DNA from: a virus | DNA: 62,550 bases | IMG/VR virus record: IMGVR_UViG_3300049793_000080 | Coordinates: 1-62,550 of that record | Direction: 5' to 3' (one strand) | In this document: in pieces, positions 35,976 to 49,232 of the stretch | Layout of the letters: each line of letters starts with the position of its first letter | How positions within the stretch are numbered: position 1 is the first letter of the stretch | The notes under the pieces: model-generated | The model's input: only the letters and a program-made list of their open reading frames with translations | Database searches by the model: none | Told to the model about the DNA's origin: nothing | Translations under genes and position numbers: made by a program

Positions 35976-38900
35976 ATGGACATCACCGCGGCACGCAGCT
36001 TGCCCGAACTCGCCGGCCTGGACGACGATCAGATCGTTGACGCACTCCATCAGGCCTATTACCCCGACCTCCCCCGAGATGAAGTAGCCAAGTCGCTTGG
36101 CATCAAGCCCACGGCCGCGCCGCGCCCGGAGACGACCTGGGGCGACCGTGCGAAGGACACCGGCATCAGCTTGCTGCAAGGCGCCGTGGCGGTGCCCCAG
36201 GCGGCGGTGGGCGTTGCGGATCTGGTGACCGGCGGCGCGGCGGGCAAGCTGGCCGAGGATGTCGGGTTCCGACCGAAAGAGGCGACCGACTTCCTGGGCG
36301 AGCGCTTGAGCGACGCGCAGAAGGGCGCGAACAAGGAAGTGCAGGACGCCGAGGGCTTTTGGGGCACCTTCAAGGCCGCCGTCTCCAATCCTTCGGTGGT
36401 GTTCCAGTCGGTGGTGCAGTCGCTGCCTTCCATGGGCGCGGGCGGCGTGGTGGCGCGCGGCGTGCTGGGCGCGAGCATGACGCCGCGCCTGCTGGCCAAG
36501 CTGTCGGCCATGGCCCCCGAGGCGCGCGAAGCCGCCATCCTGGGCATGCAGACCACCGCCGGCGCCGTGGGCGAGGGCGCCGTGCAGGCCGGCAGCGCCG
36601 CCGAACAGGCGCGCACCGACAACCCGCTGGGCACGCTGGACGGCAAGGGCGCGCTGTCGGCCGTGGCCAGCGGTGTGGGCGACACCATCATCGCCCGGTT
36701 CAGCGGGCGCCTCGCCAACAAGCTGGGCATCGCGGACGCGGACACCATGCTCGCTGGCGCCGCGGTGAACCCGCGCGCGGCCAAGAGCGTGGTGAAGGCC
36801 GCGCTCGGCGGCATGGTGACCGAGGGCTTGCTCGAGGAACTGCCGCAGTCGGTGCAGGAGCAGGTGTGGCAGAACCACGCAGCCGGCCGCCCGCTCGATG
36901 AGGGCGTGAATCAAGCCGCCGTGCTGGGCATGCTGTCCGGCGCGGCGATGGGCGGCGGTGCCAACCTTCTGAACGCGGCTCGAAAGCCGAAGCCCGACGA
37001 CATCCTGAACGCGCCGGACGTCGACGCCGCGCTGCAGACCGCGCAGGACGCGCTCCTGTTGCCCCCGCCGACGATCAGCGTCACGCTGGGCGGTACCGCC
37101 GTCACGCCGGAGCAGCGCGCGGATCTGGTGCAGCAGGAAATCACGCGCCGCGCCGCCGGCATGATGGGCGGCGAGGACGTCACCGATGTGCAGGCCAAGG
37201 GCACGCCGCCGGTGGAAGTGCCTCCGACGACGCCACCCTCGACCCCCCCAGCCTTCCCGGACCCGTTCAGCGCCGCCAAGCCGGTGGACCTGGACGCGAA
37301 CGAAGCGCGCATGCACCGCGACGCCGACCGCGACGCCCAGGCGCTCAAGGAGCACGACCCGCTGACCCTGCCGCGCAAGGGTCTGCCGGAGCTGGACGCC
37401 GAGTACGGCAAGGGCGAGGGCGACACGATCCAGAAGAACGGCGCGCCGTGGCCCAGCGAAGCGGCGGCGATGCTGTCGCTCAAGATGGCCAAGAAGAAGG
37501 GCCGCGCCGTGCCGGTGGCCGGCGGCTTCATCGCGCGACCGAACAAGGAGACACCCAATGCAGCGCCCACCCCTGAAAACAAGCCTGACGGCGCTCGCGG
37601 CGCACAGCCTGCTGCAGCAGCACCGGCCACCGACGCCGCCACTGCCCAGCGACCCGACGATCAGCATGGAGGACTTCCTGCGCCCGACACGGGAATTGCA
37701 GGCGGCAGTGCGGCGGCTGTCGCGACCCAGCCCGCGCCCGGCGGGCAAGTCGTGGGCGCAGGCGACGCTGCGCGCACACCTGGAGACGGTGTACTACGGC
37801 CAGTCAATGACGCGGCTGTGGATGGAAGAGATGAACGGCCAGCCGATGGCCGAGCGAGTGGACCCGTATCCGCACCCGTGGCAGCGGGAGCAAATGACGC
37901 GGGAACAACTACTGGCGCTGCAAAAACCGGAAGTGAGCAATCACTAACCGAAGCTGGCGCGCAATGGACCCGCATGACGGAAATCGAGCGCCGCGCCGTT
38001 GCGGGCCGCACGGCAGGTAAGGCGAAGGCGCTAGATCGCATCGTCTCGCAGAAGTGGGAAGACCTACATTCCGGCTGGCAGAAATCCCTCGCGCGGGTGA
38101 TGAACACGCCCGGCGCGCCGATTGCTCCACGTGAAACGTCAGCGCCCACTTCGCACCCAACCGCCAGCGCAGGTCCGCGCGTCATCATCAATCGGCTCGG
38201 CCCTGATGGTCTAACCGACGCCGAGCGCGCGGCTGGCAAGCCGTCCTATGCCGACAAGCCCGCCGAGGTGACGAGCGAGACGGCGCGACGCGGCGATTTC
38301 AACGTCAAGAACCACCTGGGCAAGATGGAGCGCGCGACCGTGACCGAGGGCGGCACACGCGGCCGGTTCGCCGTCAAGATCGGCGGCGAGTCCATGGGCC
38401 AGTTCCAGATGGACGACCAGGGCGCGGTGAGCCGCATCGAGGCGCGCGCCAACTGGGCCGAGGATTCCGTGCGTGACGCGGCGATGCAGTTCGTCGCGCA
38501 GGAGCGCGCCAAGACGGCACCGGCCGCCGCCGAGCAGCCGCGCGACCAGGACACCGGGCAGTTCGCGGAAGCCCCGGCCGACACGCTCCCCGCTGGCGTG
38601 CGTCGCCGCGAGAAGGGTGTGGCAAACACCAAGGCGCGCATCGCAGCCGAGGCGGCCCGCGCGGCGTACTTCACGCCCGGCAACGTGGTGCGCGGCTATG
38701 GCGGCTTCGATGAGGTGCTTGCGTACAACCCGCCCACCGAGCCCGGAGGCGCATGGAGCGTGCGCGTGCACGAAGTCAAGGAAGCCACGCCCAACAACTG
38801 GGTGCGCGTGGGCCGCCCCCAGGACGCGCGACAGCACAGCACCGAGCCGGAGGAGCGCGAGCTGCGCAACGGGCCGCGCGCCCAGTTGTCGGCCCTGCCC

Positions 38901-41900
38901 GCCAGCGAAGTGCCGTACACCGTGCCGCGTGCCGATGGCAAGGTGCACCCGGATGCCGAGCCGCGCAGCAACCCGCGCGCCGCAGCCGAGCCCGCCAAGA
39001 TCGTGACCGACAAGGCCGAGATTCGCCCATACCGCCGCTCGGACGGCAGCGTGGGCTACGAGGCCGTGCCGATCCAGCCGCCGGCCGCGCCGAATGACGA
39101 ATTGATCGTTCAATCCATTCGACCCGGCTCCAAGCCGCACGTTGTCAAGGTGGAGCCTGCGCCCGCCGCTAGCACAAACAAGGTGTTCACCGACGAGATG
39201 GCCGCCGCAGCGCGCGCCCGCCTCAAGGCCAAGCTGGGCCGGCTGAATTCGCTGCTGGACCCGCAGGACATGCTCGACGGCATCACGCTGGCCGGCTACC
39301 ACGTCGAGAAGGGCGCGCGCAGCTTCGCCGCCTTCGCGCAGGCCATGCTCGCGGATCTTGGCGAGGGTGTGCGCGCCCACCTCAAGAGTTTTTACATGGG
39401 CGTGAAGTATTCGCCCGCCGCGGCCGAGTTCTCCAAGGACATGAGCAGCGCCGCGTTCGTGGAGGAGTTCGACCTGTCGCATATCGCGGCGCCGTCCGAC
39501 ACGGACACCCTTGAAACTCAGCCGCCCGCGGCAGATACTGGAGCCAATGATGGAAGCAGCAGCCCAACACTCGACGTGGATCGCGCAGGCCCGGGGCCAC
39601 TGGAAGGAGCACCTTCCGGGGATGTACGCGCGCCTGCAGGAGAGCGGAAAACTGGAGACGGCACTGGCCGAAGCAGCGACGGCGACCAGCGAGGGGATGC
39701 ACGCCCTGATGCAGCAGGGGGCAACGTGGCAGGAGGCGTGGGAGCAGGTGCGGGAACAGTACCTGTTTCCACCGGAGGAGCCGAGCAAGGAAAAGGCCCC
39801 GCCAAGCCAAGGGTACCGCGTACACCGCGAGCTGATGGCGGGCCTGGGCTCTTTGACGATGCCGGGGGAACGGGAGGAGTAAACCCGGCCCCGAACGCCG
39901 CGCCCACGCCGGCGCCGCAGTTCAAGCCGTCCGAGGACTTCACCATCGAGGATGACCTCGCGCTGGGTGACGGCGGCGAGAAAACCAAGTTCAAAAACAA
40001 CGTGGCGGCGATTCGCCTGTTGCGCGAGCTCGAAGCGGCCGACCGCATGGCGACACCCGACGAGCAGCGCACGCTCGCCCAATACGTGGGCTGGGGCGCC
40101 TTGTCCAAGGCATTCGACGCTGACCGCGCGGAATGGGCCAAGGAGCACGCCGAGCTCAAGGATCTGCTGTCGCCCGAGGAGTTCGCCGCAGCGCGGCAAT
40201 CCACCCGCTACGCGCACTACACCAGCCGCCAGATCATCCAGGACGGCGTTTATGCCGCGCTGCATCACTTCGGCTTCACCGGCGGGCGCGTGCTCGAGCC
40301 GGGCGCCGGCGTGGGCAACTTCATCGGCATGATGCCCGCCGACATGCGCAGCGCGGGCCGCATCACGGCCATCGAGCGCGAGCCCATCGCCGCCGGCATC
40401 GCCAAGAACCTGTACCCGCTGCAAAACGTGCAGCAGGCCGACTTCACCGCGTTCAAGGGCACCGATGGCTATTTCGACGCGGTGGTGGGCAACCCGCCGT
40501 TCGCCTCCGACCCGCAGACCGACACCAGCGGGCGCAAGCACCTGGGCGGCCTGACCCTGCACAACTACTTCTTCGCCAAGAGCGTGGACCTGATGCGCGA
40601 GGGCGGGATCTTGGCGCAGGTGGTGACCAACTCGTTCATGGACGCGGCCGGCGACCGGGCCCGCAAGTACATCAGCGACCGCACCAAGCTGATGGGAGCC
40701 ATCCGCCTGCCGAACAACGCATTCAGCAAGAACGCGGGCACCGAGGTGACGACCGACATCATCTTTCTGCAAAAGCGCCCGGAGGCCGAGTGGGGCAACA
40801 AGGCGACGCGCCAGGAAGCCAAGGCGTGGCTGGACGTGGTGAAGCAGACCGACCGGCGCAACGGCGGGCAGTACAACCTCAACCAGTATTTCATCGACCA
40901 CCCGGAGATGATGCTCGGCGACTTCGGCGCGCACGGCACGATGTACGGGCCCAACCAGCCGGCGCTCATCGCCCGGCCGGGGCAGGACACGCTCGCACTG
41001 CTCCGCGAGGCGGTGCAGCGCCTGCCGGGCAATGTGTTCGTGGACCGTGCGGTGCTCGGCACCGACGCGGCCATCGAGAACGCCACCAAGGCCCTGACGA
41101 ACCCGCCGGTGCAAGAGGGCGGCTTCTATGTCGAGGGCGACAAGCTGATCCAGCGCGTACCCGACATTGCCGGCGAGCCGCGCGGCCGGGAAATCAACGC
41201 CGCAACGCAGTGGACTGCCAAGACGCCGCTGGGGGAGGCGGGCTACCAGAAGATCCGCGCGCTCACGCAGATGCGCACCACGCTGCGCGGACTGCTGGCG
41301 GCCGAATTGTCCGGCGACAAGGACATGGACGCCCTGCGCACGACGCTGGGCAAGCAGTACGACGACTACACCAAGGCGCACGGCCTGCTGGGCGACCCGG
41401 GCACCGCGCGCGTCTTCGATGACGACCCGGATTTCCCGCTGCTGCTGTCCCTGGAGCACGAGTACCGGCCCGGCATCGGCATGGCCGCGGCCAAGCGCCA
41501 GGGCATCAAGCCGACCAAGAGCGCGGCGAAAAAGGCGCCGATCTTCATGCGCCGCGTGGTCGACGCGCGCAAGCCGGTGCAGAAGGTGGAGACGCCCGCC
41601 GACGCGCTGGCCGTCTCGATGGCCGAGCGCGGCAAGCTCGATACCGTCTACATCGGCCAACTGCTCGGCAAAGACCCGCAGGAGGTGTTGAAGGAGCTGA
41701 GCACCGGCGACAAGCCGCAGCTGTTCCTGGACCCGGCGACCGACGAATACGCGCTGCGCGACGCCTACCTGTCGGGCAACGTGCGCGCGAAGCTGGAGCA
41801 GGCCAAGCAGTCCGGGCTGAGCATGAACGTGCGCGAGCTGGAGAAGGTGCAGCCCGAGGACGTGGGCGCGCATGAAATCTCGGCGCGCATCGGCTCGCCG

Positions 41901-44900
41901 TGGGTGCCCACCAGCGTCTACGAGGACTTCGCCAAGGAATTGTTCGGCGAAGGCTCGACGGCCCGCGTGCACTACATGGCGCTCAATAGCTCGTACACGA
42001 TCAGCACGTCCGGCACCAACGAGGTGAACACCACCAACAAGTGGGGCACGCCGCAGTACTCCGGCCCGGAGCTGATGTCCGCGCTGCTGAACAACCGCAC
42101 CATCCGCGTGATGCACCCGAAGGTGGGCGACACGCCGGCGTCGCTGAACGTGGAGGCCACCGATATGGCCAACACGAAGGCGCAGGAAATCCGCGACCGC
42201 TTCCAGGATTGGCTCTTTGCCGAGCCGGAGCGTTCCGAGCTGCTCGTGCGCACGTACAACGACACGAACAACAACTACGTGACGCGCAACTATGACGGCT
42301 CGTGGATGACGTTTCCGGGCAAGGTGCCCAATTCCGTGTTGCCGGGCGACGGCGGCATTTCGTTTCGCCGCCACCAGCGCAACGCCATCGCGCGTATCGT
42401 GCAGGACCGCACCGCGCTGCTCGACCACGTAGTCGGCGCTGGCAAAACCTTCACCATCGTCGCCGCGGCAATGGAGCTGCGCCGCACCGGGCTGGCCAAG
42501 AAGCCGCTCGTGGCCGTGCCGAACCACCTTGTGAAGCAGTGGGCCGCCGACTTCTACCGGCTGTACCCGGGCGCCAACATCCTCACGGCCACGAAGAAGG
42601 ACTTCGAGAAGGTCAACCGCCGCCGCTTCCTTGCCAAGATCGCAACGGGCGACTGGGACGCCGTGGTGATCGCGCACAGCTCCTTCGGCTTCATCAAGCC
42701 GGGCGCGGAATTCGAGGCCGAGTTCAACGAGCGGCAGGTGAAGATGATCATGGACACCATCGCCGCGGTGCAGGACGGCGATGGTGAGAAGGCGCAAAAG
42801 AAACGCACCGTCAAGCAACTCGAGGGCATGAAGGAGCGGCTGCAAAACCGCATCAAGAGCCTGCGCGACAAGGCGATGGACGACCTGCTGGACTTCGAGC
42901 AGCTCGGCGTCGATCAACTGTTCGTTGACGAAGCCCACATGTTCAAGAACCTGATGTTCACCACGAAGATGCAGGGCGTCTCAGGGCTGGGCGATGGGTC
43001 GGGCTCGCAGCGCGCCTACGACATGTACGTGAAAAGCCAGGAGGTGCTGGAGAAGAACGGGCGCGGCCAGGGGCTGGTGTTCGCGACCGGCACGCCAGTG
43101 TCCAACTCGCTGGGCGAGAAGTACCACATGATGCGGTACCTCATGCCCCGGCAGATGGAAGAACTGGGCTTCCAGTCGTTCGACGCCTGGGCCAACACCT
43201 TCGCCGCCGTGCAGCAGGTGTGGATGCAGAAATTCAGCGGCGACGGCTACAAGCCGCAAAACCGCATGAGCGATTTCGTGAACGTGCACGAGCTGCTGAA
43301 AATGTTCGATCAGGTGGCCGACACGGTGACGCTGGACGACATCAAGAAGGCGTACAAGGAGGAGAACAACGGCGAGGAGTTCCCGATCCCGCGCGTGAAG
43401 ACCGGGCGGCGCCAGCCGGTCAGCCTGGAGAAGTCGGCCGCGCAGATCGCCTACATGGAGCACATTGCCGCGCGCGCCAAGATCCTCGAAGCGCGCAGGG
43501 GCCCGCCGCGCAAGGGTGATGACAACGCGCTGGTGATCATGGGCGACGCACGCAAGGCGGCGATGGACATTCGCCTGATCAGCCCGGCCAAGCTGCGCAA
43601 GGCCATCGGCTATGACGTGGACGGCCGCGACCCGGGCGGGCGCATCGACCGCAGCGCGCAGGAAATCCACCAGCGCTATCAGCAGTGGAACCACGTGAAG
43701 GGCACGCAGCTGGTGTTCGCGGACCTGGGCACGCCCGTCGAGCACGCGGCCACCGAGTTGAAGGAGTACGAGGCGCTGATGGAGCGCATCAACGCCGCGA
43801 CCGATGATGTTCGCCTGCGGGCCGAGCTTGGGGCGGAAGACGCACTGGTGATCGTGAATGATGCCGAGGACGCGCAAGCCGACATCGACGTGAAGGGCCA
43901 GGACTGGCTCGACGGCATCGAGGCGGCGCAACGCGGGTTCAGCATCTACGACGACTTGAAGGCGGCGCTGATCGAGCGCGGCATGCCCGAGGACCACATC
44001 GCGTTCATCCACGACTACGGCAACGATGAACGCAAGGCGACGCTGTTTCGCAAGGTGAACGCGGGCGACATCCGCGTGCTGATCGGCTCCACCGCGAAGA
44101 TGGGCGCTGGCACCAACGTGCAGGAGCGCATCGTGGCCGAGCACCACCTGGACGTGCCGTGGCGCCCGAGCGACGTGGAGCAGCGCGAGGGCCGCATCGA
44201 GCGCCAGGGCAATAGCCTGCTGTGGACGCCGCAGAACCCGAACGGCATCAAGGACTTCGAGGTGGAAATCTTGGCCTACGTGACCAAGGACACCCTGGAC
44301 ATGCGCATGTGGCAGATCCAGGAGGTGAAGCTCAAGATGATTCACCAGCTGCGCACGCGGCAGATTTCGCGCGACATCGACAACGCTTTCGAGGACATGG
44401 AAATGTCGGCCGGCGAGATGCAGGCCGCGGCGACCGGCAACATGGACCTGTTGCGCGAGATTCAGGCGCGCAGCGATATCAAGAAGCTGGAGCAGAAAAA
44501 GCGCAGCTTCGACGCCCAGCGCTCGGACCTCATCAACCGCAAGAAGCGCGCCGCCGAAAAGCTCGCGCAGCTGCCCGCGCAAATCAAGGGAGCCGAGGTG
44601 TTGGCCGAGGGCTCGCGGGAGTACCGCAAGGCACTGGAGGACAACGCCGAGAGCTTCAAGGTCACCATCGACGGCAAGGACTTCACCGACCGCCATCTGG
44701 CCAGCGCCTACCTGCTGGACAAGATCGACGGCAAGATTTACGTGCGCACGGTGGAAAAGGACGGCAAGAAGCTGCGCGAGGAAATCAGCGCCGAGCAGTG
44801 GGCCGCGCTGCCCACCGGCGACGAGCGTGCGTTCTATGACCCGAAGGCCGCGCCGCTGGACCTGACCATGAACGGCGATCTGTTCACCGCCCGCGCAAAG

Positions 44901-47900
44901 CTGCAGGAGGCGTGGAGCAACGTCGCGGGCGACCGCGAGCCCATCGTGTGGGAGTACCAGGGCAAGACATTCAACCGGCGCACCGCGCTGGCCGTGGCGC
45001 AGCGCCAAGCCGTGGCCGACGCCGTGGCAGACGAGAAGGAAGTGGACCTGGGAAAAGTCGGCCCGTTCGCGGTGACGGCCGAAGGGCAGACCGGCAAGTG
45101 GGGCAAGTTCCTGGACGTGGTGATGACGTACAAGGGCCGCAAGATCGAGGGCGACATCGGCGTGCCCGAGGGCGACGTCTCCACGCAACTGGCCGAGCGG
45201 ATGGCGTCTTGGGCCAGCCGCAAAGCCGAGCACGCGGCCGATGACCTGCAATACCTGAAAGGCGACCTCGAGCGCGCGCAAAAGCAGAAGGCCGAGCTCG
45301 ACGCGGCCGACGATGTGGGCGACGTGTGGCCCGAGCAGAGCAAGCTGGAGGAAGCGCGAAACCGCCACAAGGCCATCCTCGCGCGTCTGGGCGGCCAGAA
45401 GGACGCGCCGCCAGCCACCGGCGACGAGCCGGCGTTCGGGCAGGGCGCAGCCACCGGCGGCATGAGCCCCGCGCTCGCGCAGCACGCGGCCGACACGGTG
45501 GCATCCGTGTGGGACAACGCGCCGCAGATCGTGGCGCTGCCCTCCATCGCGCGCGCACCGCAGAAGGTGCAGGACGACGCACGCCGGCGCATGGAGCGCG
45601 GCGGCGGCAAGCCCAAGGCCGTCTTCTATGACGGCACGGTGTACCTGTTCGCTGACGCGCTGGCCAGCCCGGCCGAGGCGGTGGAGTACACCTATCACGA
45701 AGTCCTGGGTCACTTCGGCATGCACGGGCACCTTGGCCCCGAGTTGGACAAGGAATTGAAGGCCGTCGCCACGCTGCGCAAGGAAGACATCAGCGCGATG
45801 TACGAGCGCACCGGCAAGGAGCGCAGCGCCGCGATGGATCTGCGCATGGCCGAGGAGGTGGTGGCCTACATGGCGCAGACCAAGCCCGAGCTGTCGCTGG
45901 TGCGCCGCGTCATCGCTGCCATCAAGAACTTCCTGCGCGACCACGTGCCGGGCTTCGGCTCGCTGAACATGAGCGACGCGGACATCATCCAGAAATTCGT
46001 ATTACCTGCTCGCCAGTTCGTGGAGGGCGCCCCAACGGACCCGAATGGCGGCGGCGAGTTCGATCCTGCGTTCGGTCAAGCGCGAGGCTTGAATTCACGA
46101 GAAATCCAGGTCAATGGAAAGTGGAGGCCCATCGAGACGGCCGGCGGCGAACTGATCGCGCCCACGTTCCATGGGCAAAGCGAATTTTGGAAAAAGCACG
46201 CCGACGCCTTCGCGCTGGATGACAAGGGCCGGCCGAAAGCAACGCCGGCAGAAATCAAGGCGCTGATGGGCGACAACCCTGACGATGCGATGTTCGCCCA
46301 GGGTGCGCCGCTGAACGATCCGCGCGCCTTGTGGGGACGCGCCAAGCAAAGCCTTGCGGACATGAGCAGCGCGCCGGGCACGATGCACTGGTGGAATAAA
46401 AGCATTGGCACGGAATATCACCTTGCGCAGAAGTACCCGGCGTTCAAGGCCGTGTTCGACCGCGTGCAGGACTTCATCAACGACTCCAGCCTGTACGCCA
46501 ACGAGGCGGCCGATCTAGCCCGCACCATCCTGCCGAAACTAGAGGGCTGGCGCGATGTGGTCCCGAAGCTGCTGGGCGGGAGCGGCAAGTCGCCTATTTC
46601 TGCCGCGTTCAATCGGCAGATCCAGGCGCCCATCAACGAGGGGACGCTGATCTGGACGCGCGGGGAGGACGGCAAGCCCGTGCGAGTAGATGAGTTGGAG
46701 AAGGCTGCCGACAAGATGAGCGCCGACCAGAAGGCGCAGGCCATGTTGCGCGCGGGCAAGCTGCCTGAGAGCGTGTTGAAAATGTGGCGCGGCCTTCCGC
46801 TGGATCAGTACCAGCAGGCCGTCTCCACTGCCTACAAGAACCGGATGTTGACCCCGGGCATCGTGTGGACGGACGCGGAGTTGCGCGAGAAATTCGGACT
46901 CGGCGCCGCACAGATCGCCCTGTACCGCGAGTTCCGCGCCGCGGTGGACCGCAGCATCACGCAGCTCGCCGTGAGCGACTTGGTGCGCTTTGTCGGGCAG
47001 GATGGCGACTTCATCCGCGATCAGGTGCTGGCTGCGCCGGATGTGATGACGGCCGCCAAGATGCTCGTGCAGCAGATCGACCAGCTTATCGTGGACAACC
47101 CCGAGCGGCAGGACGTTCTCAACGACACGGCCGCCAAGGTCAAGTTGAAGGCCGACAAGGCGCATGAACTGATCCAGCGCGGGTATGCCCCGCTGTCTCG
47201 CTTCGGGCACTACACGATCACCGTTCGGGCAAAGAGCGATGACGGCGAGCCCGGCGAGGTGCTGTACTTTGGCATGTACGAGAGCCGCCCGGAAGCCGCG
47301 AAGGCTGCGCGGCAGCTCGCCGCGGAAGAAGACTTCCAAGGCGCAACGCTGGTGCGCGGCACGATCAGCCACGAGCAATACAAACTGTTCGCCGGCGTGA
47401 ACCCCGACACCATTGAGCTGTTCGGAGAAATGCTCGGCCTGGAGGGCGCGGGCAATGCAGCATCCGATCAGGCGTTCCAGCAGTTCTTGAAGTCGGCGCG
47501 CAGCAACCGCAGCACGATGAAGCGGATGATTCATCGCAAGGGCACGGCGGGATTCTCCGAGGACGTTCCGCGCGTGCTGGCGTCCTTCCTTTACAGCAAC
47601 GCACGCCAAGCCAGCCGGAACCTGCACTCTCTGGAAATCGACCGCATGGGCAACGAGATTGCGCAGGCAGAGGGCGAGTTGAAGGATCATGCCGTCAAGC
47701 TGATCGACTACGTGAAGAACCCCGTGCAGGAGGCGCATCAGTTGCGTGGACTGCTATTCGCGCAGTTTCTTGGCGGGAGCATCGCATCCGCCATGGTCAA
47801 CATGAGCCAGCCCTTCATGATGACGCTGCCCTACCTGTCGCAGTTCGGTGCACGCGAGGCCGTCTCGAATTTCAAGTGGGCGTTGCTTCACGGATGGAAG

Positions 47901-49232
47901 GACACCACTGGCGACCCGACCTTGGACGCGGCGATCAAGCGGCGCGTGGAGGACGGCACCATCGCGCCCCATGAAGTTCATCAACTCCTTGCGCAATCGC
48001 TGGGCAAGGCCGAACTGAAATCAGGCGACGGCACGCTCACCGGCGATGCGGCGGCACAGGCGAATAACGCGCTCGCGCGGCTGCAGCTCGGATGGGGAAA
48101 GTTCTTCTCGACCGCCGAGCTTTTCAATCGGCGCGTCACCTACGTGGCCGCCTACCGCCTCGCCAAAGAAAAGAAGATGGCCGACCCGGACGCCTTTGCC
48201 AAGAAGGCGGTGGACGAGAGCCAGGGCGTTTACAACAAGGGCAACAAGCCTGTATGGGCCCGCGGCGCGGTGGGCAGTGTCGCGATGACGTTCAAGCAGT
48301 ACAGCATCGCGTACTTGGAGTTCGTCGCGCGCATGTGGACCGCAGGAGAGCCGGGAAGCCCGGAGCGAGCGGCCGGTCAGCGCGCGGTGTACTTCGCTGC
48401 CGCCATGCTGCTGATGATGGGCGGCGCCGGCGGCCTGCCGTTTGAAGACGATGTGGCCGATGTGGTGGACGGCATCATGCAACGCCTGGGCTACAACTGG
48501 AACACGAAGCAAAAGCGCCAGGAGATGCTGGAGAAGGCATTCGGTCGCGGCTTCGGGCACGTGCTGGAGAAGGGTGTTTCTGGTCTGCCGGGCGTGCCGA
48601 TTGATGTCGCCGGCCGCTTCGGTATGGGCAACCTCATCCCCGCCACCGGGCTGCTGCAAAAGAAGGCCGATCACACCAGCGACGTTCTGGAAATCGGAGG
48701 CCCGGCCGCGAGCCTCGCCAAGCGATTCTTCCAGGCCAGCAACCTCGCGGCGGAAGGCCGAATCGTGGACGCCGGCTTGCTGGCCTCGCCGGTCGCCGCG
48801 TCCAACATCGCCAAGGCCATCGACATGGCATCGAGCGGTATCTACAAGGACAGTGCGGGCAAGAAGGTGATGGACGTCGACGGCTGGGATGCCATGTCGA
48901 AACTGATCGGGTTCCAGCCTTCTGCCGTGGCGCGCGTCCAAGATGCCGACCGATCCGCGCAGGTGATGGTGGAGCAGGTGAAGATGCGCGAACGGGAAAT
49001 CTCGCAGCAGTGGGCGCAGGCGCTTGCTGACGGGGATCGGGATGGTGCGACCAAGGCGCGCGAAGCCATCGCGGCGTGGAATGCCAAGAACGAGGACACC
49101 CCCATAAAAATCAAACTTGGAGATGTGCTGCGCCGCGCGAAAAACATGCGAATGGATCGCGCGACGCGCATCGAGAAAAGTGCGCCAAGCGAAGTTCGCG
49201 GAACCGTTCGGGAAATGCTGCGCGAACCGTAG
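35976..49232 (+). CDS. Giant polyvalent virion protein (DarB-like methylase/helicase, zincin, PLxRFG)
   Basis: The single 4,418-residue ORF makes up over a fifth of the genome. Visible modules in order are as follows. The N terminus resembles structural ejection proteins, with GMMGG at about 395. Low-complexity linkers lie at about 520-660 and 1190-1305. An N6-adenine methylase is marked by VLEPGAGVGNF (about 1437) and NPPF (about 1506). A SNF2/superfamily 2 helicase has Walker A GAGKT (about 2153), DEAH in VDEAHMFKN (about 2315) and QREGRIERQG (about 2733). A zincin-like HEVLGH lies at about 3240 and the PLSRFG signature at about 3738; a helical C-terminal region follows. Phage P1 DarB, with methylase and helicase domains, protects incoming DNA from type I restriction, and Bcep22-type phages carry a virion-borne counterpart of about 4,600 residues. 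Ejection with DNA, entry and restriction protection are the likely roles. Two ORFs are nested in its +1 frame. Confidence 0.9.
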   Translation: MDITAARSLPELAGLDDDQIVDALHQAYYPDLPRDEVAKSLGIKPTAAPRPETTWGDRAKDTGISLLQGAVAVPQAAVGVADLVTGGAAGKLAEDVGFRPKEATDFLGERLSDAQKGANKEVQDAEGFWGTFKAAVSNPSVVFQSVVQSLPSMGAGGVVARGVLGASMTPRLLAKLSAMAPEAREAAILGMQTTAGAVGEGAVQAGSAAEQARTDNPLGTLDGKGALSAVASGVGDTIIARFSGRLANKLGIADADTMLAGAAVNPRAAKSVVKAALGGMVTEGLLEELPQSVQEQVWQNHAAGRPLDEGVNQAAVLGMLSGAAMGGGANLLNAARKPKPDDILNAPDVDAALQTAQDALLLPPPTISVTLGGTAVTPEQRADLVQQEITRRAAGMMGGEDVTDVQAKGTPPVEVPPTTPPSTPPAFPDPFSAAKPVDLDANEARMHRDADRDAQALKEHDPLTLPRKGLPELDAEYGKGEGDTIQKNGAPWPSEAAAMLSLKMAKKKGRAVPVAGGFIARPNKETPNAAPTPENKPDGARGAQPAAAAPATDAATAQRPDDQHGGLPAPDTGIAGGSAAAVATQPAPGGQVVGAGDAARTPGDGVLRPVNDAAVDGRDERPADGRASGPVSAPVAAGANDAGTTTGAAKTGSEQSLTEAGAQWTRMTEIERRAVAGRTAGKAKALDRIVSQKWEDLHSGWQKSLARVMNTPGAPIAPRETSAPTSHPTASAGPRVIINRLGPDGLTDAERAAGKPSYADKPAEVTSETARRGDFNVKNHLGKMERATVTEGGTRGRFAVKIGGESMGQFQMDDQGAVSRIEARANWAEDSVRDAAMQFVAQERAKTAPAAAEQPRDQDTGQFAEAPADTLPAGVRRREKGVANTKARIAAEAARAAYFTPGNVVRGYGGFDEVLAYNPPTEPGGAWSVRVHEVKEATPNNWVRVGRPQDARQHSTEPEERELRNGPRAQLSALPASEVPYTVPRADGKVHPDAEPRSNPRAAAEPAKIVTDKAEIRPYRRSDGSVGYEAVPIQPPAAPNDELIVQSIRPGSKPHVVKVEPAPAASTNKVFTDEMAAAARARLKAKLGRLNSLLDPQDMLDGITLAGYHVEKGARSFAAFAQAMLADLGEGVRAHLKSFYMGVKYSPAAAEFSKDMSSAAFVEEFDLSHIAAPSDTDTLETQPPAADTGANDGSSSPTLDVDRAGPGPLEGAPSGDVRAPAGERKTGDGTGRSSDGDQRGDARPDAAGGNVAGGVGAGAGTVPVSTGGAEQGKGPAKPRVPRTPRADGGPGLFDDAGGTGGVNPAPNAAPTPAPQFKPSEDFTIEDDLALGDGGEKTKFKNNVAAIRLLRELEAADRMATPDEQRTLAQYVGWGALSKAFDADRAEWAKEHAELKDLLSPEEFAAARQSTRYAHYTSRQIIQDGVYAALHHFGFTGGRVLEPGAGVGNFIGMMPADMRSAGRITAIEREPIAAGIAKNLYPLQNVQQADFTAFKGTDGYFDAVVGNPPFASDPQTDTSGRKHLGGLTLHNYFFAKSVDLMREGGILAQVVTNSFMDAAGDRARKYISDRTKLMGAIRLPNNAFSKNAGTEVTTDIIFLQKRPEAEWGNKATRQEAKAWLDVVKQTDRRNGGQYNLNQYFIDHPEMMLGDFGAHGTMYGPNQPALIARPGQDTLALLREAVQRLPGNVFVDRAVLGTDAAIENATKALTNPPVQEGGFYVEGDKLIQRVPDIAGEPRGREINAATQWTAKTPLGEAGYQKIRALTQMRTTLRGLLAAELSGDKDMDALRTTLGKQYDDYTKAHGLLGDPGTARVFDDDPDFPLLLSLEHEYRPGIGMAAAKRQGIKPTKSAAKKAPIFMRRVVDARKPVQKVETPADALAVSMAERGKLDTVYIGQLLGKDPQEVLKELSTGDKPQLFLDPATDEYALRDAYLSGNVRAKLEQAKQSGLSMNVRELEKVQPEDVGAHEISARIGSPWVPTSVYEDFAKELFGEGSTARVHYMALNSSYTISTSGTNEVNTTNKWGTPQYSGPELMSALLNNRTIRVMHPKVGDTPASLNVEATDMANTKAQEIRDRFQDWLFAEPERSELLVRTYNDTNNNYVTRNYDGSWMTFPGKVPNSVLPGDGGISFRRHQRNAIARIVQDRTALLDHVVGAGKTFTIVAAAMELRRTGLAKKPLVAVPNHLVKQWAADFYRLYPGANILTATKKDFEKVNRRRFLAKIATGDWDAVVIAHSSFGFIKPGAEFEAEFNERQVKMIMDTIAAVQDGDGEKAQKKRTVKQLEGMKERLQNRIKSLRDKAMDDLLDFEQLGVDQLFVDEAHMFKNLMFTTKMQGVSGLGDGSGSQRAYDMYVKSQEVLEKNGRGQGLVFATGTPVSNSLGEKYHMMRYLMPRQMEELGFQSFDAWANTFAAVQQVWMQKFSGDGYKPQNRMSDFVNVHELLKMFDQVADTVTLDDIKKAYKEENNGEEFPIPRVKTGRRQPVSLEKSAAQIAYMEHIAARAKILEARRGPPRKGDDNALVIMGDARKAAMDIRLISPAKLRKAIGYDVDGRDPGGRIDRSAQEIHQRYQQWNHVKGTQLVFADLGTPVEHAATELKEYEALMERINAATDDVRLRAELGAEDALVIVNDAEDAQADIDVKGQDWLDGIEAAQRGFSIYDDLKAALIERGMPEDHIAFIHDYGNDERKATLFRKVNAGDIRVLIGSTAKMGAGTNVQERIVAEHHLDVPWRPSDVEQREGRIERQGNSLLWTPQNPNGIKDFEVEILAYVTKDTLDMRMWQIQEVKLKMIHQLRTRQISRDIDNAFEDMEMSAGEMQAAATGNMDLLREIQARSDIKKLEQKKRSFDAQRSDLINRKKRAAEKLAQLPAQIKGAEVLAEGSREYRKALEDNAESFKVTIDGKDFTDRHLASAYLLDKIDGKIYVRTVEKDGKKLREEISAEQWAALPTGDERAFYDPKAAPLDLTMNGDLFTARAKLQEAWSNVAGDREPIVWEYQGKTFNRRTALAVAQRQAVADAVADEKEVDLGKVGPFAVTAEGQTGKWGKFLDVVMTYKGRKIEGDIGVPEGDVSTQLAERMASWASRKAEHAADDLQYLKGDLERAQKQKAELDAADDVGDVWPEQSKLEEARNRHKAILARLGGQKDAPPATGDEPAFGQGAATGGMSPALAQHAADTVASVWDNAPQIVALPSIARAPQKVQDDARRRMERGGGKPKAVFYDGTVYLFADALASPAEAVEYTYHEVLGHFGMHGHLGPELDKELKAVATLRKEDISAMYERTGKERSAAMDLRMAEEVVAYMAQTKPELSLVRRVIAAIKNFLRDHVPGFGSLNMSDADIIQKFVLPARQFVEGAPTDPNGGGEFDPAFGQARGLNSREIQVNGKWRPIETAGGELIAPTFHGQSEFWKKHADAFALDDKGRPKATPAEIKALMGDNPDDAMFAQGAPLNDPRALWGRAKQSLADMSSAPGTMHWWNKSIGTEYHLAQKYPAFKAVFDRVQDFINDSSLYANEAADLARTILPKLEGWRDVVPKLLGGSGKSPISAAFNRQIQAPINEGTLIWTRGEDGKPVRVDELEKAADKMSADQKAQAMLRAGKLPESVLKMWRGLPLDQYQQAVSTAYKNRMLTPGIVWTDAELREKFGLGAAQIALYREFRAAVDRSITQLAVSDLVRFVGQDGDFIRDQVLAAPDVMTAAKMLVQQIDQLIVDNPERQDVLNDTAAKVKLKADKAHELIQRGYAPLSRFGHYTITVRAKSDDGEPGEVLYFGMYESRPEAAKAARQLAAEEDFQGATLVRGTISHEQYKLFAGVNPDTIELFGEMLGLEGAGNAASDQAFQQFLKSARSNRSTMKRMIHRKGTAGFSEDVPRVLASFLYSNARQASRNLHSLEIDRMGNEIAQAEGELKDHAVKLIDYVKNPVQEAHQLRGLLFAQFLGGSIASAMVNMSQPFMMTLPYLSQFGAREAVSNFKWALLHGWKDTTGDPTLDAAIKRRVEDGTIAPHEVHQLLAQSLGKAELKSGDGTLTGDAAAQANNALARLQLGWGKFFSTAELFNRRVTYVAAYRLAKEKKMADPDAFAKKAVDESQGVYNKGNKPVWARGAVGSVAMTFKQYSIAYLEFVARMWTAGEPGSPERAAGQRAVYFAAAMLLMMGGAGGLPFEDDVADVVDGIMQRLGYNWNTKQKRQEMLEKAFGRGFGHVLEKGVSGLPGVPIDVAGRFGMGNLIPATGLLQKKADHTSDVLEIGGPAASLAKRFFQASNLAAEGRIVDAGLLASPVAASNIAKAIDMASSGIYKDSAGKKVMDVDGWDAMSKLIGFQPSAVARVQDADRSAQVMVEQVKMREREISQQWAQALADGDRDGATKAREAIAAWNAKNEDTPIKIKLGDVLRRAKNMRMDRATRIEKSAPSEVRGTVREMLREP
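37558..37947 (+). CDS. Nested ORF A in the +1 frame of the giant gene
   Basis: This 129-codon ORF lies entirely within the giant gene, whose own frame here encodes a disordered Ala/Gly/Asp/Pro linker. An ideal Shine-Dalgarno AAGGAG (37545-37550) lies 7 bases before ATG 37558. From Met 37 onward the product looks like a real protein (MEDFLRPTRELQAAVRRLSR, TLRAHLETVYYGQSMTRLWM, then PYPHPWQREQMTREQLLALQ), with aromatic residues and mostly G/C third bases in this frame. The protein is not recognised. Independent expression is likely but unproven. Confidence 0.6.
   Translation: MQRPPLKTSLTALAAHSLLQQHRPPTPPLPSDPTISMEDFLRPTRELQAAVRRLSRPSPRPAGKSWAQATLRAHLETVYYGQSMTRLWMEEMNGQPMAERVDPYPHPWQREQMTREQLLALQKPEVSNH
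39547..39882 (+). CDS. Nested ORF B in the +1 frame of the giant gene
   Basis: This 111-codon ORF is in the same +1 frame as ORF A and again lies over a disordered linker of the giant protein. CTGGAG (39538-39543) is 6 bases before the second ATG (39550). The product looks well ordered (HSTWIAQARGHWKEHLPGMY, ARLQESGKLETALAEAATAT, GATWQEAWEQVREQYLFPPE) and is helical, with many Trp and charged residues. That is unlike a random shadow frame, which in this genome gives Arg/Pro/Ala runs. I recall similar small phage/bacterial hypothetical proteins ending in REQYLxPPE, but no function. Confidence 0.65.
   Translation: MMEAAAQHSTWIAQARGHWKEHLPGMYARLQESGKLETALAEAATATSEGMHALMQQGATWQEAWEQVREQYLFPPEEPSKEKAPPSQGYRVHRELMAGLGSLTMPGEREE

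Follow-up and report, generated by a model that had tools for sequence, protein, structure and literature searches.

The window analysed here is the whole 62,550-base record of an uncultured phage, and it holds one giant ORF (35976-49232, + strand, 4418 aa), a DarB-like gene of the methylase-helicase, polyvalent type. The PHROG matches of the N-terminal part of its product include DarB-like antirestriction, the annotation that related giant genes carry. Two shorter ORFs lie on the same strand in its +1 frame: ORF A (37558-37947, ATG to TAA, 129 aa), preceded by the Shine-Dalgarno sequence AAGGAG (37545-37550) with a 7-base spacer, and gene B (39550-39882, 110 aa), just upstream of the methylase domain, with GGAG at 39540-39543, 6 bases before its ATG. 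Directly 3' of ORF A, the giant frame encodes a small WTRM-type domain (37950-38109, + strand). Relatives of the giant gene were gathered by helicase and methylase domain scans, which yielded giant genes in viral contigs and in a Xenophilus prophage; a set of 399 genomes from the family to which the Xenophilus genome belongs supplied more prophages, and protein searches the annotated phages. An earlier note on this DNA had looked to Bcep22-like phages for homologous giant genes. That label fits in a broad sense, BcepIL02 having a giant gene of the same type, but the nearest relatives that turned up belong to uncultured phages and the Xenophilus prophage.

ORF A is complete, with both its start and its stop inside the giant coding frame, and the 129-codon length and the AAGGAG 7 bases before the ATG are as the earlier note had described them. 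A 6-base Shine-Dalgarno sequence precedes just one of the 76 out-of-frame ATGs of the giant gene, that of ORF A, and the RNA around this site and the ATG is weakly folded (z +1.6); no promoter or terminator patterns were found near the ORF. Translation of the giant frame across ORF A gives the expected Ala/Gly/Asp/Pro filler. The ordered helices that had been attributed to the ORF A product are another matter, since single-sequence structure prediction returned a low-confidence model (pLDDT 54). The product has no family match in Pfam or PHROG and no match in the PDB, and neither an HNH nor any other nuclease domain was recognized by Pfam or PHROG. No homologues were found in phages (DNA and protein), viral contigs, plasmids, related records or the PDB, nor in the 399 family and 369 class genomes around the Xenophilus genome. 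Two 23-bit matches among those genomes contain an internal TGA and were taken as chance, and a weak match in the relative L008 (E 0.008) was dropped, as it came from a tblastn search with the low-complexity linker that yielded only noise. The linker around ORF A fails to align between relatives, and two viral scans with the giant-frame flanks of ORF A found no closer relative.

In composition, this stretch looks like a gene in the nested frame. For the frame of ORF A, GC by codon position is about.70/.50/.83, the profile of a normal gene, whereas by giant codon position it changes from.74/.51/.90 before ORF A to.82/.69/.50 inside it. The high third-position G/C that had been claimed for the nested +1 frame is thus real (.83 against.50 in the giant frame), and the earlier composition and start-site claims for ORF A all stand. 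Giant-frame GC3 is.504 inside ORF A versus.87 elsewhere; when synonymous codons are redrawn with the giant protein held fixed,.884 +/-.028 is expected across ORF A. In a codon-usage scan, based on a codon model trained on the giant gene itself, the bias leaves the giant frame for the +1 frame at 37581 and returns at 37941, both change points lying near the ends of ORF A. Only two long segments of the 13-kb gene, A and B, score higher in the +1 than in the giant frame, with gains of about 75 for A and 83 for B (39534-39876), and the next +1 segment, at the 3' end, gains 12. ORF A scores +73, compared with a maximum of -133 among 130-codon windows in 40300-49000, and the nested +1 frame is the best-scoring of the six frames.

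None of 20000 synonymous resamplings that kept the giant protein fixed reached the +1 score of ORF A, so that its coding signature exceeds what the giant frame allows. Under a stricter permutation, limited to the region's own codons, the score of ORF A had p=0.0013 and its open frame p=0.0055, a signal as strong as that of gene B, which is conserved (p=0.0018). The scarcity of Arg in the giant frame across ORF A was considered as proof of dual selection and rejected (p=0.026 by resampling, 0.73 by permutation); given the permutation value, we make no such claim.

Gene B offers the comparative record. Throughout one panel of giant genes, a +1 ORF ends shortly upstream of the methylase domain, and 25 relatives align to the B of this phage with 29-63% identity, in the same place and the same +1 phase. 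USP_18, BcepIL02 and L031 (13-19%) have equivalents of B by position and phase, their homology being unproven; the ORFs at this place in the most distant relatives (L032, L035, L036 and L038) look unrelated to B, and no B-like signal was seen in Shewanella phage Y11 or in the split giant gene of phage F116. B homologues occur in phages of Erwinia, Klebsiella, Vibrio, Agrobacterium, Ochrobactrum, Sinorhizobium and Microcystis. A Shine-Dalgarno-like motif of at least 4 bases is present at 29 of 31 chosen B starts, a descriptive count in that the starts were picked partly by the motif. In six phage records (Atu_ph08, PEp14, VvAW1, SopranoGao, Mwe-JY07 and POI1126) the B ORF is offset +1 from the annotated giant CDS, as is the ORF at the equivalent place in BcepIL02, and in none of these seven places is it annotated as a CDS.

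Pairwise comparison of 12 genes (66 pairs) shows higher conservation of the nested B protein than of the giant frame in 64 pairs (means 51% vs 40%), although these pairs share ancestry and are not independent. In the B alignments it is the nested third position that changes most. These comparisons support selection on the nested frame of B across its homologues. AlphaFold, given 19 sequences, produced a confident helical model of B (pLDDT 86.5), which has no significant match in the PDB and one significant viral match, Q8W6J4. The core of B weakly resembles Pfam TnpV (PF14198, E 0.0017), but its score falls below the curated cut-off (18.8 vs 27 bits), and B is nested in a phage gene. In Sinorhizobium phage PBC5 (L065:2767-9309) the annotated gp22 ends in B and the rest of the giant ORF is in another frame, a change of frame that suggests a frameshift or a sequencing error. 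PHROG 938, labelled endolysin, likewise ends in B, perhaps because of the frame change in PBC5 gp22.

The linkers of relatives contain further ORFs of this kind. When ORFs of at least 45 codons were surveyed across 33 giant genes, z>5 was exceeded upstream of the methylase by 47 of 287 +1 ORFs (B ORFs included) and by 0 of 54 +2 ORFs. The score climbs also when the giant-frame codon bias merely relaxes, an effect for which the permutation test corrects. Downstream of the methylase the threshold was passed by 2 of 343 +1 ORFs and by 0 of 154 +2 ORFs. Some linker ORFs encode known families. One is in L089, a prophage in the family of the Xenophilus genome, whose 190-codon +1 ORF (L089:3423-3995), with AAGGAG before its ATG, encodes an HNH endonuclease (PHROG E 6e-50). 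In L014, a 72-codon +1 ORF with AAGGAG matches PHROG 16759 (E 2.9e-19) and 122 phage records, and the match is annotated as a separate short gene in both of the two records inspected. Phage PEp14 has a linker ORF as well (L060:6763-6993). The strength of the case varies between linker ORFs, as the permutation results are uneven: p exceeds 0.05 for 7 of 26 linker ORFs of relatives, including the L089 HNH ORF (p=0.23), whose own open frame is nonetheless unlikely by permutation (p=0.006). By this test ORF A is among the stronger cases.

Several other features of these genes were noted in passing. The N-terminal linkers of four giant genes (L017:3915-4070, L071:16835-16945, L088:3373-3516 and L091:3215-3367) encode, in +1, a short basic peptide that bears a KPSKxARN-like motif, a recurrence judged by inspection of translations, with weak database support (E 4). 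A relative of the WTRM-type domain follows the nested peptide ORF in L088 (by blast) and, by eye, in L017 and L071, and one precedes the nested HNH ORF in L089. Coding-like +1 ORFs are also present in the C-terminal third of giant genes (L039:14331-14660, L006:13455-13637 and L010:13071-13325), two of the three passing the permutation test. In Pseudomonas phage Itty13 (L062), the genes annotated over this region are on the strand opposite an open giant frame of 4,112 codons, which looks like a misannotation, and the giant gene of Pseudomonas phage F116 (L069:14821-26182) is broken into two ORFs (p59 and p60) in different frames.

On the basis of the sequence statistics and the comparable ORFs in relatives, ORF A is very probably a real out-of-frame gene with its own ribosome site, nested where the giant frame reads the same bases as a disordered linker. 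A separate protein of 129 residues would be made by ribosomes that start within the giant mRNA at AAGGAG-7-ATG, and those translating the giant frame would read these bases as Ala/Gly/Asp/Pro linker. The product might be an accessory protein made together with the giant protein, which is a guess.

How such a gene originated is a separate matter. ORF A could have arisen de novo by overprinting, within an existing Ala-rich linker, and be translated and younger than the giant frame; it would stay a nested gene in that event, and we regard this origin as possible, if somewhat doubtful. Its orphan status and its Pro/Gln/Leu/Arg-rich make-up fit birth within a linker, as does the giant-frame Arg content across A (7 of 129 residues), to which none of 597 shadow windows of ordinary genes falls. 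Against this, the codon bias belongs to the nested frame, with giant GC3 at.50 versus.87 elsewhere, so that the nested frame would be the older one on the usual reasoning from codon usage, and known gene families sit in such linkers in some relatives.

Another reading denies the gene altogether: relaxed selection, a pair of compensating frameshifts or foreign DNA would have cost the linker its GC3 bias, with the +1 signal arising only as a by-product. A lower giant GC3 does lift the +1 score by itself, and an open frame is cheap, the giant frame being open in 41% of resamplings given the protein of ORF A. However, the permutation tests, which use the region's own codons, reject this reading for both the score and the open frame. 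Furthermore, the bias switch begins near the ATG that bears the only out-of-frame 6-base Shine-Dalgarno sequence and stops at the stop codon of ORF A, and that ORFs of this kind can be genes is shown by gene B and by the L089 HNH and L014 ORFs. We therefore consider the absence of a gene improbable, and compensating frameshifts are not favoured as the source of the signal. Very improbable is an out-of-frame homing-type insertion like the published ShiLan case in a phage methylase gene (PMC11855218), for which the nested HNH in an L089 linker could be cited, as ORF A matches no nuclease family, has no convincing flanking repeats and has yielded no empty site, the linker being shared with no close relative.

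If ORF A is the nested gene that it seems to be, its phase calls for no special explanation. Of 110-codon windows in the ordinary genes of this phage, 39% lack a stop in the shadow frame one base upstream and 2.6% in the other shadow frame. Stops alone would thus favour the +1 phase, with no need to invoke further selection. Similarly, the 41% of resamplings with an open giant frame imply that a gene could lodge in the linker without special adjustment. The linkers of relatives hold unrelated ORFs in the same phase, and N-terminal linkers therefore seem to be sites where small genes can lodge or arise while the giant protein stays intact. We lean slightly towards the more general view that the N-terminal linkers of DarB-like giant genes are a hiding place for genes, with a core gene B in most of them and a changeable slot, occupied here by ORF A. 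Such a slot would take varied small genes, all with their own ribosome sites and in the one phase in which the giant frame readily stays open, and parts of the linkers of giant proteins would be the out-of-frame shadow of other genes.

This wider pattern, for which B is the firm case, has more value as a result than ORF A. Giant genes make up as much as a fifth of a phage genome (22% for the gene of the same kind in phage JC1; PMC9144972), and their linkers look like filler. If these linkers hold out-of-frame genes, genes are being missed, B among them, in the annotation of an entire group of phages, and there would be a testable reason for the look of the linkers, a disordered linker being partly the by-product of another gene. 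The papers searched, the original Bcep22/BcepIL02 genome paper not among them, yielded no account of genes nested in giant genes of the DarB-like type.

The host gene of A and B encodes one of the polyvalent or DarB-like giant proteins; in the paper on such proteins (PMC5512222), a word search turned up no mention of out-of-frame nested genes. A complete gene lying inside a phage gene in a different frame is known from Rz1, which is embedded in Rz in the embedded spanin class of Lessievirus phages (PMC9144972). Rz and Rz1 are lysis partners, whereas the host frame of ORF A is a disordered linker and no link to lysis was seen. The ShiLan domain, an out-of-frame HNH within a mycobacteriophage methylase gene (PMC11855218), resembles ORF A in being an independent out-of-frame protein in a phage methylase host gene whose overlapped stretch stays open and yields an unstructured host-frame product. 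It differs in that ShiLan has a GTG start and no detectable ribosome-binding site, while ORF A has a strong Shine-Dalgarno sequence with an ATG and is not an HNH. A close parallel to ShiLan among these genes is L089, where a nested HNH with AAGGAG lies within a giant gene.
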